A stretch of DNA of 64,000 nt from Natrinema sp. SYSU A 869 (lineage in GTDB: Archaea > Halobacteriota > Halobacteria > Halobacteriales > Natrialbaceae). Every line of letters begins with the position of its first letter. Position 1 is the first letter of the stretch. The stretch covers positions 1,364,001-1,428,000 of the forward strand of contig NZ_CP082249.1 of assembly GCF_019879105.1 (NCBI RefSeq). Direction: 5' to 3'. The notes beneath the pieces were generated by a model, which was not told where the DNA came from, did no database searches, and saw only the letters and a list, made by a program, of their open reading frames with translations. Positions 15,186 to 21,383 of the stretch are shown piece after piece. A program made the translations under genes and the position numbers.

Positions 15186-16505
15186 CTACTGGTCATGTGC
15201 TGGGGTTCGGTCCGCGTCGAACTCGTGGTCGGTGTCGAACCGATCATCGAATCGGTGGCAAGCGATCGGATGGTGATTTGAACTACCCTGTAGTTCCGGC
15301 TCCGTCGTCTCGCAGGGCGTCTCGAACGCCGACGCGAGACGCCGTCGTGCCCCCTCGAGGTCGCCAGCGACGGCCGTCTCGAGCGCATCCGAGAGGACGG
15401 CGTCCGCGTCCAGATCGTGGAGCGACTCGGGAATGCCGTGGACATTGCGGATCGCCGCGGTGAGATCCGCTCTATCGTTGGACTGCGAGAGCAGCGCCTC
15501 GAGCCCTGCGTCGGCGTCCGCCTCGGTCAGACGGGTCCGAAGCGACATGATCCCGCGGAAGGCGTCCGCCTCAAGGTCGTACGCCGCAGGCGGGATGATC
15601 TTCGGACAGCGAGTGTGGAATCGGCAGCCGGCGGGCGGATCGGTCGGCGACGGCACCGACCCCTCGAGGACGATCCGGTCGCCCTCCCAGCAGGGGTCGG
15701 GTTCGGGGATCGCCGACAGCAGCGCTTCCGTGTAGGGGTGGGAGGGATCGTCGAAGACCCGGGCAGTCGGTCCGGTTTCGACGATCTCGCCGAGATACAT
15801 CACGGCCACGCGGTCGGCGACGTGCTCGACGACCGAGAGGTCGTGGGCGATGAACAGATACGAGAGCCCAAACTCATCTTGGAGATCGGACAGCAAGTTG
15901 AGGATCCGGGCCTGCACCGAGACGTCGAGCGCGGAGACCGGCTCGTCGCAGACGACGAGTTCGGGTTCGACCGCGAGCGCGCGGGCGATGCCGATCCGCT
16001 GGCGCTGGCCGCCCGAGAACTCATGGGGGAACCTGCTTGCGTGGCCGGCCCGCAGCCCGACCGTCTCGAGCAGGTCGCGGACGCGCTCGTCGCGGCGGTC
16101 TGGGGGCACGATATCGTGGACCGCGAGGGCTTCGCCGACGAGTTCGCCGACCGTCAGTCGCGGATCGAGGCTGGCCGTGGGGTTCTGGAAGACATACTGG
16201 ATTTCGGTCCGTACCTCCCGCAGTTCCGATCGCGAGCGGTCCGTCAACTCGGTGCCCCGGTACGTGACCGAGCCGCCGGTCGACTCGAGCAACCCGAGGA
16301 GCGTTCGGCCGAGAGTCGTCTTGCCACAGCCGCTCTCGCCGACCAGCCCGAGCGTCTCTCCTGCGCGAATCTCGAGGTCGACACCGTCGACCGCCCGAAC
16401 CGTCTCGTCGCGCCCGAGCAGCCGATCGAGGAACCCGTCGGCGGTGGAGTAGTACGTCTCGAGGCCCTCGGCCCGGAGGAGTGGAGCGTCGTCGGCCGTC
16501 GTCAC
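15186..16505 (-). CDS. Peptide ABC transporter ATP-binding protein, DppF/OppF type
   Basis: 439 residues. Walker A is GESGCGKT at residues 56-63, the signature FSGGQRQRIGIARAL is present, and Walker B is VVCDEP, followed by the oligopeptide-transporter C-terminal domain with the cysteine motif CRFHTRCP. A further tail of about 110 residues, rich in acidic and alanine residues, goes beyond the usual family length of about 330. It overlaps the DppD gene by four bases (ATGA). It is the last gene of the dppABCDF operon. Confidence 0.92.
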   Translation of the reverse strand: MTTADDAPLLRAEGLETYYSTADGFLDRLLGRDETVRAVDGVDLEIRAGETLGLVGESGCGKTTLGRTLLGLLESTGGSVTYRGTELTDRSRSELREVRTEIQYVFQNPTASLDPRLTVGELVGEALAVHDIVPPDRRDERVRDLLETVGLRAGHASRFPHEFSGGQRQRIGIARALAVEPELVVCDEPVSALDVSVQARILNLLSDLQDEFGLSYLFIAHDLSVVEHVADRVAVMYLGEIVETGPTARVFDDPSHPYTEALLSAIPEPDPCWEGDRIVLEGSVPSPTDPPAGCRFHTRCPKIIPPAAYDLEADAFRGIMSLRTRLTEADADAGLEALLSQSNDRADLTAAIRNVHGIPESLHDLDADAVLSDALETAVAGDLEGARRRLASAFETPCETTEPELQGSSNHHPIACHRFDDRFDTDHEFDADRTPAHDQ

Positions 16506-17608
16506 CGCGTCTCACCCCGCCGGTTCCTCGATTCCCGTTCGTGACACGGATCGTCCACCTCGTCCTCGCTCTTGGCGTCTCGCACCTGCACCTCGTAGTC
16601 CAAGCCGTCCTCGAGGTCGCCGGTGTACTCGAGGCAGGCGGCGAGATGTTTGTCGAGACCCGTATTGGCCGCTGGCGTCCCCGACTCGGTCTCGACGAGC
16701 GACGGGTCCTGCCGGGCACACGTGTCCTCAGCGTAGGGACAGCGCGGATGGAACCGACAACCCGTCGGCGGGTCAATGAGGTTCGGCATCGTCCCGGATA
16801 CCGTCGTGAGCCGTTCGCGATCGTCGCCGAGGCGGGGGATCGAAGCAAGCAGCCCGGCAGTGTAGGGATGTTTCGGGTCGTAGTACAGCTCCTCGACCGG
16901 CGCGCGTTCGACGATCTGACCGGCGTACTGGACCAGCACCCGATCACAGAGCTCCGCGACGATGCCCAGATCGTGCGTGACAAGCTGAATCGCCGTCTCG
17001 GACTCCTGGGCGAGGTCCGCAAGCAGTTCGAGGATGCTCGCCTGGACGGTGACGTCGAGGCCCGTCGTCGGTTCGTCACAGAGCAGGAGGGCGGGATCGC
17101 AGGACAGCGCCATCGCGATGACGACCCGCTGTTGCATTCCGCCGGAGAACTCGTGAGGATAGTCGGAGTACCGCACGGTCGCGTCCGGGATTCCGACCTG
17201 CTCGAGGAGGGCGATCGCCCGGTCGCGGGCCTCGCGGTCGGTGACGTCTTCGTGGGCGCGAATCGCTTCGCCGATCTGTTCGCCGACGGTGTAGACGGGG
17301 TTGAGCGCAGCGTCGGCGTCCTGAAACACCATGGCGACGTCGTTGCCGCGGATCTCCCGGAGTTCGTCGGCCGAGCACTCGAGGATGTTCCGCCCGTCGA
17401 ACCGGATCTCGCCGCCGACGATCTCGCCGGGCTCGCGGATCAGACGGAGGAGCGCGAGGGTGGCGACGCTCTTGCCGGCCCCGCTTTCGCCGACCAGTCC
17501 CACCGTCTCGCCCTCACGGACCTCGTAGCTGATGCCGTCGACGGCTCGGACCACGCCGTCATCGGTGTAGAACTGAACGACGAGGTCCTCGACCTTGAGC
17601 AGCGCCAT
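16502..17608 (-). CDS. Peptide ABC transporter ATP-binding protein, DppD/OppD type
   Basis: 368 residues. Walker A is GESGAGKS (about residues 39-46), the signature is FSGGMQQRVVIAMAL, Walker B is LLLCDEPTTGLD, and the C-terminal domain carries CRFHPRCPYAED. It pairs with the neighbouring DppF to power dipeptide or oligopeptide uptake. The first codon overlaps the DppC stop, and its own stop overlaps the DppF start. Confidence 0.93.
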   Translation of the reverse strand: MALLKVEDLVVQFYTDDGVVRAVDGISYEVREGETVGLVGESGAGKSVATLALLRLIREPGEIVGGEIRFDGRNILECSADELREIRGNDVAMVFQDADAALNPVYTVGEQIGEAIRAHEDVTDREARDRAIALLEQVGIPDATVRYSDYPHEFSGGMQQRVVIAMALSCDPALLLCDEPTTGLDVTVQASILELLADLAQESETAIQLVTHDLGIVAELCDRVLVQYAGQIVERAPVEELYYDPKHPYTAGLLASIPRLGDDRERLTTVSGTMPNLIDPPTGCRFHPRCPYAEDTCARQDPSLVETESGTPAANTGLDKHLAACLEYTGDLEDGLDYEVQVRDAKSEDEVDDPCHERESRNRRGETR

Positions 17609-18768
17609 CAGCGCATCCGCCTCCGGTCGTCACTCGCGTCCCGGTGGGGGTCGAGCGCGTCGTTGACGCCGTCACCCACGAGGTTGATCGCCAGCACGAA
17701 CAGAAAGATTGCGGCCCCCGGGAAGACGGTAACGTGCCAGTGGCCCTGGACGAGCGAGTCCCGGCCTCGAGAGAGCATCGCGCCCCACTCGGCGGTGCCG
17801 GGCTCTAGGCCCAGTCCGAGGAAGCCAAGCGCCGCCGCCGTGAGGACGACCGTGCCGACGTTGAGGGTCGCCTGTACGACGACGGGTGTGATCGCGTTCG
17901 GGACGACGTGGCTGCGGACGATCGTTCGGTCGGGGACGCCGAGCGCTCTGGCCGCCGTCACGTACTCGCGTTCGCGGACGGAGAGGACCTCGCCGCGCAA
18001 CAGTCTAGCGTAGCCGATCCAGCCGGTGACGACGAGTGCCAACACCAGTTTCCAAAAGCCCCGTCCGAGGATCGCAACGATCCCGATCGCGAGGATCAAG
18101 AACGGAAAGGCGTACAGCACGTCGACGAGTCGCATGATGATTTCGTCGATCCAGCCGCCGAAATAGCCGGCGATCGCGCCGAGCGGAACCCCGACACACA
18201 GCGCCAGCGAGACGGCGATGAGACCGACACTCAGCGTGTAGCGGCCGCCGACGAGCACTCGAGAGAACTGGTCGCGGCCCGCCCAGTCAGTGCCGAAGGG
18301 ATGGTCCCACGACGGCGGGGCATTCGCCGGGCCGACGAACGTCTGGGCGGGATCATACGGGGCCAGCGACACGGGCTGGAGCGTGACTGTGTACTCCGCC
18401 GTCGAGACCTCGATCGGGCGAGCGAAGACCGCGAGCACCGCCATGATGACGATAATCGTCAGCCCGACCATCGCCGTCCGATTCCGGCGGAACCGGTGCC
18501 ACGCCTCCTCGAGCCGGGGGCGTCCCGGTCCCTCGGACGCAGTTTCCGTCGTCCCCATCGTCGCCGTCGGTGTCGGTTCCGTACGCGACCTCGGGTCAAT
18601 GTTCGCGTTCCCAGTGGCGGTGCGCTCGGCCGGTGGCCCGGTATTCGCTGTCGGTGGGTCACCGTCGTCGCTGTTCGAGTCCGCGTGGCTGCGGGCGTCC
18701 GAGTCCGCATCGTCGAAGCCGACGATGCGAATTCGGCCGCGGTCGGTGGTAGGGCGTCGGTCACTCAT
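17608..18768 (-). CDS. Peptide ABC transporter permease, DppC/OppC type
   Basis: 386 residues. About 85 hydrophilic low-complexity residues, rich in Asp, Ser, Thr and Arg, precede the first membrane helix (about residues 105-123). The canonical permease then follows with the EAA-type motif 'EYVTAARALGVPDRTIVRSH' (about residues 274-293) and six helices in total. The N-terminal extension is long for the family. The ATG at 18768 is the first plausible start, and the frame upstream overlaps DppB. Confidence 0.9.
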   Translation of the reverse strand: MSDRRPTTDRGRIRIVGFDDADSDARSHADSNSDDGDPPTANTGPPAERTATGNANIDPRSRTEPTPTATMGTTETASEGPGRPRLEEAWHRFRRNRTAMVGLTIIVIMAVLAVFARPIEVSTAEYTVTLQPVSLAPYDPAQTFVGPANAPPSWDHPFGTDWAGRDQFSRVLVGGRYTLSVGLIAVSLALCVGVPLGAIAGYFGGWIDEIIMRLVDVLYAFPFLILAIGIVAILGRGFWKLVLALVVTGWIGYARLLRGEVLSVREREYVTAARALGVPDRTIVRSHVVPNAITPVVVQATLNVGTVVLTAAALGFLGLGLEPGTAEWGAMLSRGRDSLVQGHWHVTVFPGAAIFLFVLAINLVGDGVNDALDPHRDASDDRRRMR

Positions 18769-18775
18769 GGATGGA

Positions 18776-19723
18776 TCAGTATCGAATGCGTGGGTCGAGT
18801 ACCGCGTAGACGATATCGACGAGCAGGTTCGCGAGGACGATCGAGACGGCGATGAGTAGGACGCCGGCCTGAATGACCGGGTAGTCCCGCTGCAGGATCG
18901 ACCGGACCAGTAGCCGCCCCATGCCCGGCCAAGAGAAGATTTGTTCGACCACGACAGCACCGTCGACCAGAAACGCGAGCTGGAGGCCGGCGACCGTCAC
19001 AACCGGGAGCAAGGCGTTCCGCAGGACGTGTTTCAGGATCACCGTCCGCTCGCGTAGCCCCTTCGCGCGCGCTGTCCGAACGTAGGCCGCGTCGAGTTCC
19101 TGTCGCATCGACGACCGCAGTAGCCGGGTGACGAGCGCGGCCGAGGCCGTTCCGAGCGTGATCGTCGGCAAGATCATGAACTTCGCCATCGCGAGACTCG
19201 CCAGTGGCGCGTCCGGCGGGATCACCCGAACCCAGCCGAGTCGGACGCCGAAGACGAGCAAGAGGACGAGCCCGAGCCAGAAGTTCGGCGTCGCGATGCC
19301 GGCGAGCGCAGCGAGCCGACTGAGTTCATCGGCCGGCTCGCCGTGCCTGACCGCAGCGACGATACCGGCGGGAACGCCGATCGCGAGCGCGAGCAGCCAC
19401 GCGGCCCCGCCGAGAGCGAGTGTCGCGGGCAGCCGCCGGCCGACCGTCGCTGTGACGCTCCGCCCGGTGATCGGCGACTCGCCGAACTCGAGAAAGAGCG
19501 CGTCCCGCAGCCAGAGAAGGTACTGTTCCCAGATCGGCCGGTCGAGATGGTATTCGGCCCGGATCGCGGCCTCGGTGCCGGGGCTGACGTTTCGGAACCC
19601 GACGAGCGCGTCGATCGGGTCGCCCGGGAGCGCGTGGACGAACGAGAACGTCAGTGCGGTGACGCCAAGCAGGACTGGAACCGTGACCGACACCCGCGTG
19701 AGGACGTAGCGACCGAGCGACAT
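18776..19723 (-). CDS. Peptide ABC transporter permease, DppB/OppB type
   Basis: 315 residues, six membrane helices. It opens with LTRVSVTVPVLLGVTALTF, has 'FVHALPGDP' at about residues 28-36, and the EAA loop 'DAAYVRTARAKGLRERTVIL' (about residues 212-231). It pairs with DppC to form the channel. Seven bases separate its stop from DppC, and thirteen separate its start from the binding-protein gene stop. Confidence 0.93.
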   Translation of the reverse strand: MSLGRYVLTRVSVTVPVLLGVTALTFSFVHALPGDPIDALVGFRNVSPGTEAAIRAEYHLDRPIWEQYLLWLRDALFLEFGESPITGRSVTATVGRRLPATLALGGAAWLLALAIGVPAGIVAAVRHGEPADELSRLAALAGIATPNFWLGLVLLLVFGVRLGWVRVIPPDAPLASLAMAKFMILPTITLGTASAALVTRLLRSSMRQELDAAYVRTARAKGLRERTVILKHVLRNALLPVVTVAGLQLAFLVDGAVVVEQIFSWPGMGRLLVRSILQRDYPVIQAGVLLIAVSIVLANLLVDIVYAVLDPRIRY

Positions 19724-19736
19724 TGGTGGGAGTGAG

Positions 19737-21383
19737 TCAGGATGAGCGGACGTACTCGTCGGCGATCCGTTCTCGGAACGCCTCGTCGGTATACGCCTCG
19801 GCCAGCGGCGAAATAGGCGTGTATGCCGGTCGGCCGAGCCCGTGATATACCTCCTCGACGATGTGCTCGCGGGGAATCAGCATATTACACCCCCGGCGAA
19901 CGGCGTTATTGGAAAACGGATCGTGATAGAGTGGATAGATCAGCATATCGAACCCGCCGCCGATGTGGCGGTCGACGCCGTACGCGTCATCGTCGTCCAG
20001 TTCCGTGAGACTCGCCGACGGCACGCCGTCGCTGAAGTCGGTATTCCCGGCCTCGAGTGCACCCTGTCGTGACGCCTTCTCGGTGATGACCTCGAGTCGG
20101 ACGGTTTCGATCGGTGCCGTCGCCGGGACCGTCTCCGAGCCCGCGAACCAGTAGTCCTCGAACCGTTCCAGTCGCCAGTCGTCGCCCGCTTGGTAGTCGA
20201 CGAACTGATAGGGGCCGGTTCCGATCGGTGTCGACTCGAGGTCGAGGTCGCCGTTGATCGCCGCTATCGGGACGATCGGGACGTTGAACAGCCGCTGTTC
20301 GAAGGGACCGTACTCCCGCCAGCAGTGGATGTCGATCGTATAGTCGTCGACGATCTCACTGTCATCGTACCAGTCGAAGACGTCGGATTCCCGCGGTTTG
20401 CCCTCGTAGCGTTCGAACGAGCCCTTGACGTGTGCGGCGGTGAGCTCCTCGCCGTTGTGAAACTGGACGCCCTCTTGGAGTGAAAACCGATAACTCGTCG
20501 CATCGAGTCGCTTCCATCCGTCGGCCAGGACCGGCTGAAGCTCACCGTCGAAGTCGATGCCCACGAGTCCCTCGTAGATGAGTTGGACCGCCTGACTCGA
20601 GGGGGAGTCGTTCATCGAGACGGGATCAGTAGTCGAGATATCATTTCCGAGATCGCCCACGAACTCGTCGCTCCCCTCGAGATTCGTATAGACGTCCGCC
20701 CAGGGGGCATACACCGCACTATACGTGCCCGGCTGGAGCGGATACGTTTGCCAGCCGCTGACGACGTCGGCGTTCCAGGCGTGTGCCGTTTCGCTGAATC
20801 GAATGAACGATACCGGGGAGTCGGCGACTAGCCGTTCCTGTAGCTGTCGGTAGATATCGACCCGTTCGTCGGTGACTGTCTCCTCGAGTCCGCTATCGAT
20901 GTATTTGTCGACGGTCTCGTTGGTGTAGTGGTTGACGTTGAGCCCCTCGGGGGTATGGTTGTCCGAGTGAAACAGCATGTTGACGTAGTCGTCAGGATCC
21001 CAGCCACCGGTCCAACTGGCGATGAAGAGGGCGTTTTCGCCCTTGTCAGCCGCCGTGGTTAGCAGGTCGAGATAGGTCGTCCACTTGTATTCCGCAATCG
21101 AGATATCGAAGAAGCCGGTGTCCTCGAGCTCGGCCTTGAGGAGTTCCGCGAATCGGCTTCGTTCGGTGTCTTCGGCGACCGCGATCGTCGTTTCAAACGG
21201 TGGTTCGATACCGGTCGCCGCGAACCCCTCCTGAATCAGTTCTTCGGCCGGGCCGTCGGCTTCGATACTATTGCTGCGGATACAGCCGCCCAGCCCGGCG
21301 ATCCCTGCCGTACCCACACCCTTCAGTAGTGAACGCCGCCGTAGTGCACGGCGTTCACCCGACCCGACGCTATGCCCTGACAT
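19737..21383 (-). CDS. Peptide ABC transporter substrate-binding lipoprotein, circularly permuted
   Basis: 548 residues of the SBP_bac_5 (DppA/OppA) family, anchored outside the cell. A Tat signal (RRRSLLKGVG) leads to the lipobox LGGC with Cys34. The order of the fold is swapped. Residues about 45-235 are the usual C-terminal lobe ('SWTGGWDPDDYVNMLFHSDN' at 123-142). Residues about 245-548 are the usual N-terminal part ('YEGLVGIDFDGELQPVLADG' at 270-289, then 'EGVQFHNGEELTAAHVK'), ending at ADEYVRSS, where normal homologues continue into the segment found here at residue 45. It heads the operon. Confidence 0.9.
   Translation of the reverse strand: MSGHSVGSGERRALRRRSLLKGVGTAGIAGLGGCIRSNSIEADGPAEELIQEGFAATGIEPPFETTIAVAEDTERSRFAELLKAELEDTGFFDISIAEYKWTTYLDLLTTAADKGENALFIASWTGGWDPDDYVNMLFHSDNHTPEGLNVNHYTNETVDKYIDSGLEETVTDERVDIYRQLQERLVADSPVSFIRFSETAHAWNADVVSGWQTYPLQPGTYSAVYAPWADVYTNLEGSDEFVGDLGNDISTTDPVSMNDSPSSQAVQLIYEGLVGIDFDGELQPVLADGWKRLDATSYRFSLQEGVQFHNGEELTAAHVKGSFERYEGKPRESDVFDWYDDSEIVDDYTIDIHCWREYGPFEQRLFNVPIVPIAAINGDLDLESTPIGTGPYQFVDYQAGDDWRLERFEDYWFAGSETVPATAPIETVRLEVITEKASRQGALEAGNTDFSDGVPSASLTELDDDDAYGVDRHIGGGFDMLIYPLYHDPFSNNAVRRGCNMLIPREHIVEEVYHGLGRPAYTPISPLAEAYTDEAFRERIADEYVRSS

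Follow-up and report, generated by a model that had tools for sequence, protein, structure and literature searches.

A circularly permuted cluster C binding protein at the head of a haloarchaeal dpp-type operon

Introduction

How can a binding protein with an ordinary export leader and an ordinary operon carry the two parts of its family in the wrong order? The question is raised by P0001, a gene in the 64,000-nucleotide stretch of Natrinema sp. SYSU A 869 analysed here (contig NZ_CP082249.1; hereafter the window). An initial annotation had proposed that its product is a natural circular permutation that starts with the C-terminal lobe of a DppA/OppA-type protein and continues into the N-terminal lobe. 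Circular permutation in nature is usually encountered as a single ancient event, seen on comparing distant proteins.

Our analysis indicates that P0001 is, as read from its sequence, a circularly permuted cluster C (DppA/OppA) binding protein. It is very probably a functional lipid-anchored component of a Dpp/Opp-type ABC importer, in which a two-lobed cluster C fold is built from a permuted chain of recurrent origin.

Results

The segments of P0001 stand in inverted order

SBP_bac_5 is the sole Pfam match of P0001 (E 1.3e-58; score 199 bits, cut-off 32), and positions 1-257 of this profile map to residues 281-534 of the protein. The best solved chain, 5u4o, was recovered by phmmer in two strong stretches of inverted order: residues 247-534 align to 5u4o 52-339 (i-Evalue 3.8e-28), and residues 55-195 align to 5u4o 355-490 (i-Evalue 3.3e-10). 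A reference profile of 567 positions, made from seven standard-order haloarchaeal homologues, likewise matched P0001 as a leader followed by positions 380-564 and then 68-368, with all family segments present. Standard paralogues in the same genome served as a control and matched this profile as a single stretch in the normal order. Pfam, phmmer and the haloarchaeal profile all contradict a standard N-to-C order in P0001, which thus stands as a topological variant homologous to SBP_bac_5 proteins and not as an ordinary one of them. AlphaFold2 gave a mean pLDDT of 33 for P0001 with an alignment of six sequences only (the window and five Natrinema loci).

Table 1. Features of the permuted gene and its operon in the window.
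Feature	Coordinates	Strand	Basis or remark
DppF-type ATPase	15186..16505	minus	Pfam/NCBIfam
DppD-type ATPase	16502..17608	minus	Pfam/NCBIfam
DppC-type permease	17608..18960	minus	ORF called mechanically; its real start is probably more internal
DppB-type permease	18776..19723	minus	Directly downstream of P0001, 13-base gap; Pfam BPD_transp_1, NCBIfam Opp2B/GsiC-like
P0001, peptide-binding gene	19737-21383	minus	548 aa; coordinates as correctly given by the initial annotation
Front segment, residues 238-548 (domains I and II plus the front of lobe 2; ends ADEYVRSS)	19740..20672	minus	Pfam SBP_bac_5 1-257; profile 68-368
New joint TNLEG-SDE, residues 233-240 (old C-terminus to old mature N-terminus)	20664..20687	minus	Termini of uncut L089 and L096
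Back segment, residues 43-237 (rear of lobe 2 and old C-terminal segment of domain I)	20673..21257	minus	Profile 380-564; 5u4o 355-490
DPExAxELL-type helix DGPAEELIQEGFAAT, with which the fold now starts	21213..21257	minus	Comparison with uncut relatives
Tat lipoprotein signal, residues 1-34, RRRSLLKGVGTAGIAGLGG/C	21282..21383	minus	Translation
Hypoxanthine/guanine phosphoribosyltransferase gene, upstream of P0001	21490..22182	minus	NCBIfam HPT_Archaea

The cut lies inside lobe 2 and the joint in domain I

Comparison with the uncut relatives L089-L098 showed the back and front segments swapped and defined both the cut and the joint. At the cut site, L089 reads ...PISPLLDDYSSESFQAEMREKYQGY/DPERARELLADGFDALGISPPYET..., whereas P0001 ends in ...PISPLAEAYTDEAFRERIADEYVRSS and starts after its lipobox with IRSNSIEADGPAEELIQEGFAATGIEPPFET; its chain is thus opened as ADEYVRSS / (A)DGPAEELI. 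The DPExAxELL-type helix that now opens the fold follows, in standard proteins, the sequence that is C-terminal in P0001, and L089 runs across the start of this helix as ...EKYQGY/DPERARELLADGF... At the joint, WADVYTNLEG (to residue 237) is followed by SDEFVGDLGNDISTTDP (from residue 238), so that the C-terminus of L089 (...IYAPWADAYTTVGGG) and its mature N-terminus (...ELVATLGADVKNYDP) correspond to the uninterrupted ...VYAPWADVYTNLEGSDEFVGDLGNDISTTDP of P0001. A second signal, lipobox and linker are missing at this joint in comparison with the termini of L089 and L096. In the leader, RRR, SLL and C34 are invariant among the six orthologues compared.

In a cluster C relative the lower lobe comprises residues 240-488 (PMC10667598), and the cut in P0001 is placed inside lobe 2 because of homology to this protein. 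Both termini of oligopeptide-binding proteins lie near each other in the domain I sheet (PMC10924461), and the joint therefore requires little distortion. Judged from these alignments, lobe 1 would become continuous and lobe 2 would be built from both chain ends; there would still be two passages of the chain through the hinge, with the lipid anchor attached to lobe 2 and no longer to lobe 1.

Most of the initial annotation was borne out by these comparisons. The inverted order was recovered by Pfam, phmmer and the standard-order profile, including the separate alignment of the two segments that the annotation had suggested, in which each matched the family. The joint that it put near residues 235-248 was located at the 237/238 boundary, and the sequence agrees with its cut between two helices, just before the DPExAxELL helix. 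Its description of a C-terminal lobe followed by an N-terminal lobe holds for the order but not for the lobe border: lobe 2 is itself divided, its front part remaining C-terminal while its rear part leads the chain of P0001, together with the last return segment of domain I.

Two other proteins permuted in the same way, L087 and L088, end in ...DEYSRYYGAE and ...TRYSRYHRDADR, a few residues beyond the cut of P0001. These extra residues may be left over from two earlier copies that overlapped.

Export signal and operon context are retained

As the initial annotation had stated, the export signal and the operon context are kept, with a Tat/lipobox leader in front and dppBCDF-type genes downstream (Table 1); both an export signal and cognate permease and ATPase genes are thus present. 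Peptide import by this system is predicted from the sequence relationships, and the phosphoribosyltransferase neighbour allows for a substrate other than peptides. The same type of neighbour precedes the operon in its standard form as well as in its permuted forms of groups A and B (window; L117, L118, L121, L084-L086; groups defined below), a hint of either common regulation or a substrate related to purines.

The permutation is common to a whole clade

The window's genome was assigned to Natrinema, with named relatives 63-80% identical. Full-length orthologues of the same order were present in 23 of the 28 Natrinema congeners sampled, at 63-85% identity, and a class-wide search recovered more distant full-length homologues of the same order (44-50%) in other genera of the same family and in a second family, f4. 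The search of related genomes that the annotation had called for thus found the same permutation, and its presence in many independent genomes rules out chance and upholds the claim of a natural rearrangement. Beyond that annotation, the permutation is common to the whole clade, uncut relatives occur in the same operon, and several events are indicated. The uncut relatives belong to a neighbouring family, f5; they are 42-50% identical over the front segment and about 36-43% over the back segment, and they share the gene order and a DppB that is 60-65% identical.

In one further congener, Natrinema versiforme JCM 10478, the orthologue is split in the draft assembly: a Nextera transposase adaptor, CTGTCTCTTATACACATNC, breaks the frame at L071:6612-6630 (NZ_AOID01000005.1). 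This split gene was considered as a fission intermediate and rejected, the break being adaptor contamination of a public draft assembly.

Other permuted groups occur in archaea and bacteria

Permuted proteins fall into several groups. Group A, which includes P0001, is opened before the DPExAxELL helix, and groups B, C and D are opened after it. Group B proteins have about 650-670 aa (L028, L046, L112-114, L117, L120, L121), group C consists of L031 and its relatives, and group D is a divergent addition. With one group C query, 79 of 391 haloarchaeal species gave a match at E <= 1e-40, nearly all full length and in the same order. A permuted gene of group A or C is present in about 108 of the 391 species sampled, a lower bound that is the union of the two counts at strict thresholds. 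Full-length matches of the same order to the group C query were also seen outside the class but within the phylum (G565, G545, G498, G506, G487), by sequence search rather than profile.

The window's genome holds four permuted genes (P0001, L054, L056, L057) among its 14 SBP_bac_5 genes. L056 and L057 lie near each other on the window's own contig (G000:C3:1000772-1005229), and tandem pairs of standard order are found in the same genome (L058/L059 and L063/L064).

Bacterial spread was assessed by plasmid searches only. Single-piece matches of the same order were found on alphaproteobacterial plasmids of Nitratireductor, Microvirga, Neorhizobium, Ketogulonicigenium, Roseomonas and Maritalea; the three cases examined all stand ahead of permease and ATPase genes, and the permuted order of L143-L145 was confirmed by profile. 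The Ketogulonicigenium gene (L144) has hydantoinase/oxoprolinase genes around it, a possible pointer to its substrate.

A third opening, in a long loop of lobe 1 and with the same joint, was found in one metagenome-derived gene (L048:1926-3926; G050:C138:2909-4909), in whose product the initial strands of lobe 1 (DTLRLAVAENIASFDPPYSNDTTS...LASGWE) have become C-terminal. No second case of this type was found among the 59 genomes searched.

The permuted state arose more than once or was repeatedly reverted

To count the origins, the segments of permuted chains were rearranged into the standard order, and these chains were aligned together with unpermuted homologues. On the resulting tree of 46 rows, in which support is weak for some branches and some terminal branches are long, the permuted state requires five changes, at least three of which are forced by strong branches; a one-change history was found in 0 of 200 bootstrap trees. 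AU tests rejected a single clade of all permuted rows (p-AU 1.3e-73) and a union of the two nearest groups, A and B (p-AU 5.8e-13), but rejected neither group A alone (0.095) nor group B alone (0.21); because the tree was already known when the groups were named, these p-values are indicative. Under this model, the sequences have gone through a minimum of three events (A, B, C/D), or else through gains and returns in the same number. Separate gains are favoured because the openings differ.

Discussion

In the history that we propose, the ancestor of the Natrialbaceae-type lineage would have carried a standard-order gene, whose old C-terminus would have been fused to its old mature N-terminus, both lying in domain I. 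A surface loop of lobe 2 that immediately precedes the DPExAxELL helix would then have become the new opening, while the Tat/lipobox leader was retained or re-attached in front. The likely route is that tandem copies fused in frame and then lost their outer portions, and at least two further independent permutations of a similar kind would have taken place in the family. Duplication is a general route to circular permutation (PMC3320104), and the tandem binding-protein genes in the window's genome make it plausible here; no fused tandem intermediate was found among the homologues examined. We infer the fold, substrate binding, the duplication route and any benefit of the new tether from these relationships.

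Fission of the gene into two polypeptides that were later joined in the other order is a recognised route to permutation as well (PMC3320104). We consider it unlikely here, since no natural split gene was found, the N. versiforme split being an adaptor artefact, and since the cut lies inside lobe 2, away from a domain border. It is somewhat less probable still that a single ancestral permutation was followed by several reversions to standard order. Permuted and standard rows are indeed interleaved within groups A and B, and several members of both groups share a locus next to the phosphoribosyltransferase gene, as reversion would have it. However, distant standard paralogues and the standard-order PDB chains argue for a standard ancestor, the exact old termini would have to be restored several times, and the openings differ in lying before or after one helix.

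A chimera of back and front segments from different paralogues could account for the weakly supported differences between segment trees within group A. Nevertheless, separate trees of the two segments placed each permuted group beside the same uncut relatives, with both segments in the same subfamily in every group; the chain is therefore not a chimera of unrelated paralogues, and we regard this explanation as very improbable. With the function of P0001 predicted from sequence, a decaying or non-functional gene whose frame is open by chance was also considered. Against this, pN/pS is about 0.24-0.43 and alike in both segments, so that the whole chain is under purifying selection; with dN/dS well below 1 in both segments, a reading frame intact in nearly all orthologues and an intact dpp operon still headed by the gene, decay is hardly credible. 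An assembly rearrangement within the gene, for which no supporting evidence was found, is refuted by the same order in diverged sequences from dozens of independent genomes, including the complete chromosome L070.

Under the proposed history of separate permutations, the system would lend itself to experiment. Permuted and unpermuted relatives (about 36-50% identical in both segments) in the same operon make a direct comparison possible, and recurrence with openings around one helix, together with the third opening, would make the effects of topology, tether position and folding order testable. Search tools that assume one order see permuted genes as partial or broken matches. We also put forward, tentatively and as the less probable reading of this spread, that recurrent, selected re-tethering of cluster C proteins has produced a widespread unrecognised class, 'cluster Cc', in archaea and bacteria. 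If so, opening around one lobe 2 helix would tether the protein by lobe 2 instead of lobe 1 and alter its presentation to the permease.

P0001 shares homology over both segments with DppA, OppA, NikA and AppA (PDB 5u4o, 1dpp, 1xoc, 8efz), and with DppA/OppA-type systems it shares Tat lipoprotein export and the head position in a dppBCDF-type operon. In contrast to P0001, all cluster C PDB chains whose alignments were inspected have the standard order. The likely route of duplication would be the one known for saposin/swaposin and DNA methyltransferases (PMC3320104), although a duplicated intermediate was not found for P0001.

No earlier report of a permuted cluster C binding protein was found in the open-access literature searched, and the cluster C case seems undescribed; natural permutation of binding proteins is already known for type I. 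The naturally permuted type I sugar-binding protein TpMglB-2 (Tp0684), for which ligand binding and closure have been shown, was proposed as 'Type Ic / Cluster Bc' (PMC4990184). Like P0001, it is a lipid-tethered, naturally permuted binding protein belonging to an ABC importer. P0001 falls outside 'Type Ic', as its Pfam assignment is to SBP_bac_5 only. In the type I fold of TpMglB-2 only N-lobe strands have moved and a fourth hinge crossing is present, whereas P0001 has a cluster C fold by homology and is cut in lobe 2; and unlike TpMglB-2, permuted cluster C proteins would have at least three origins.
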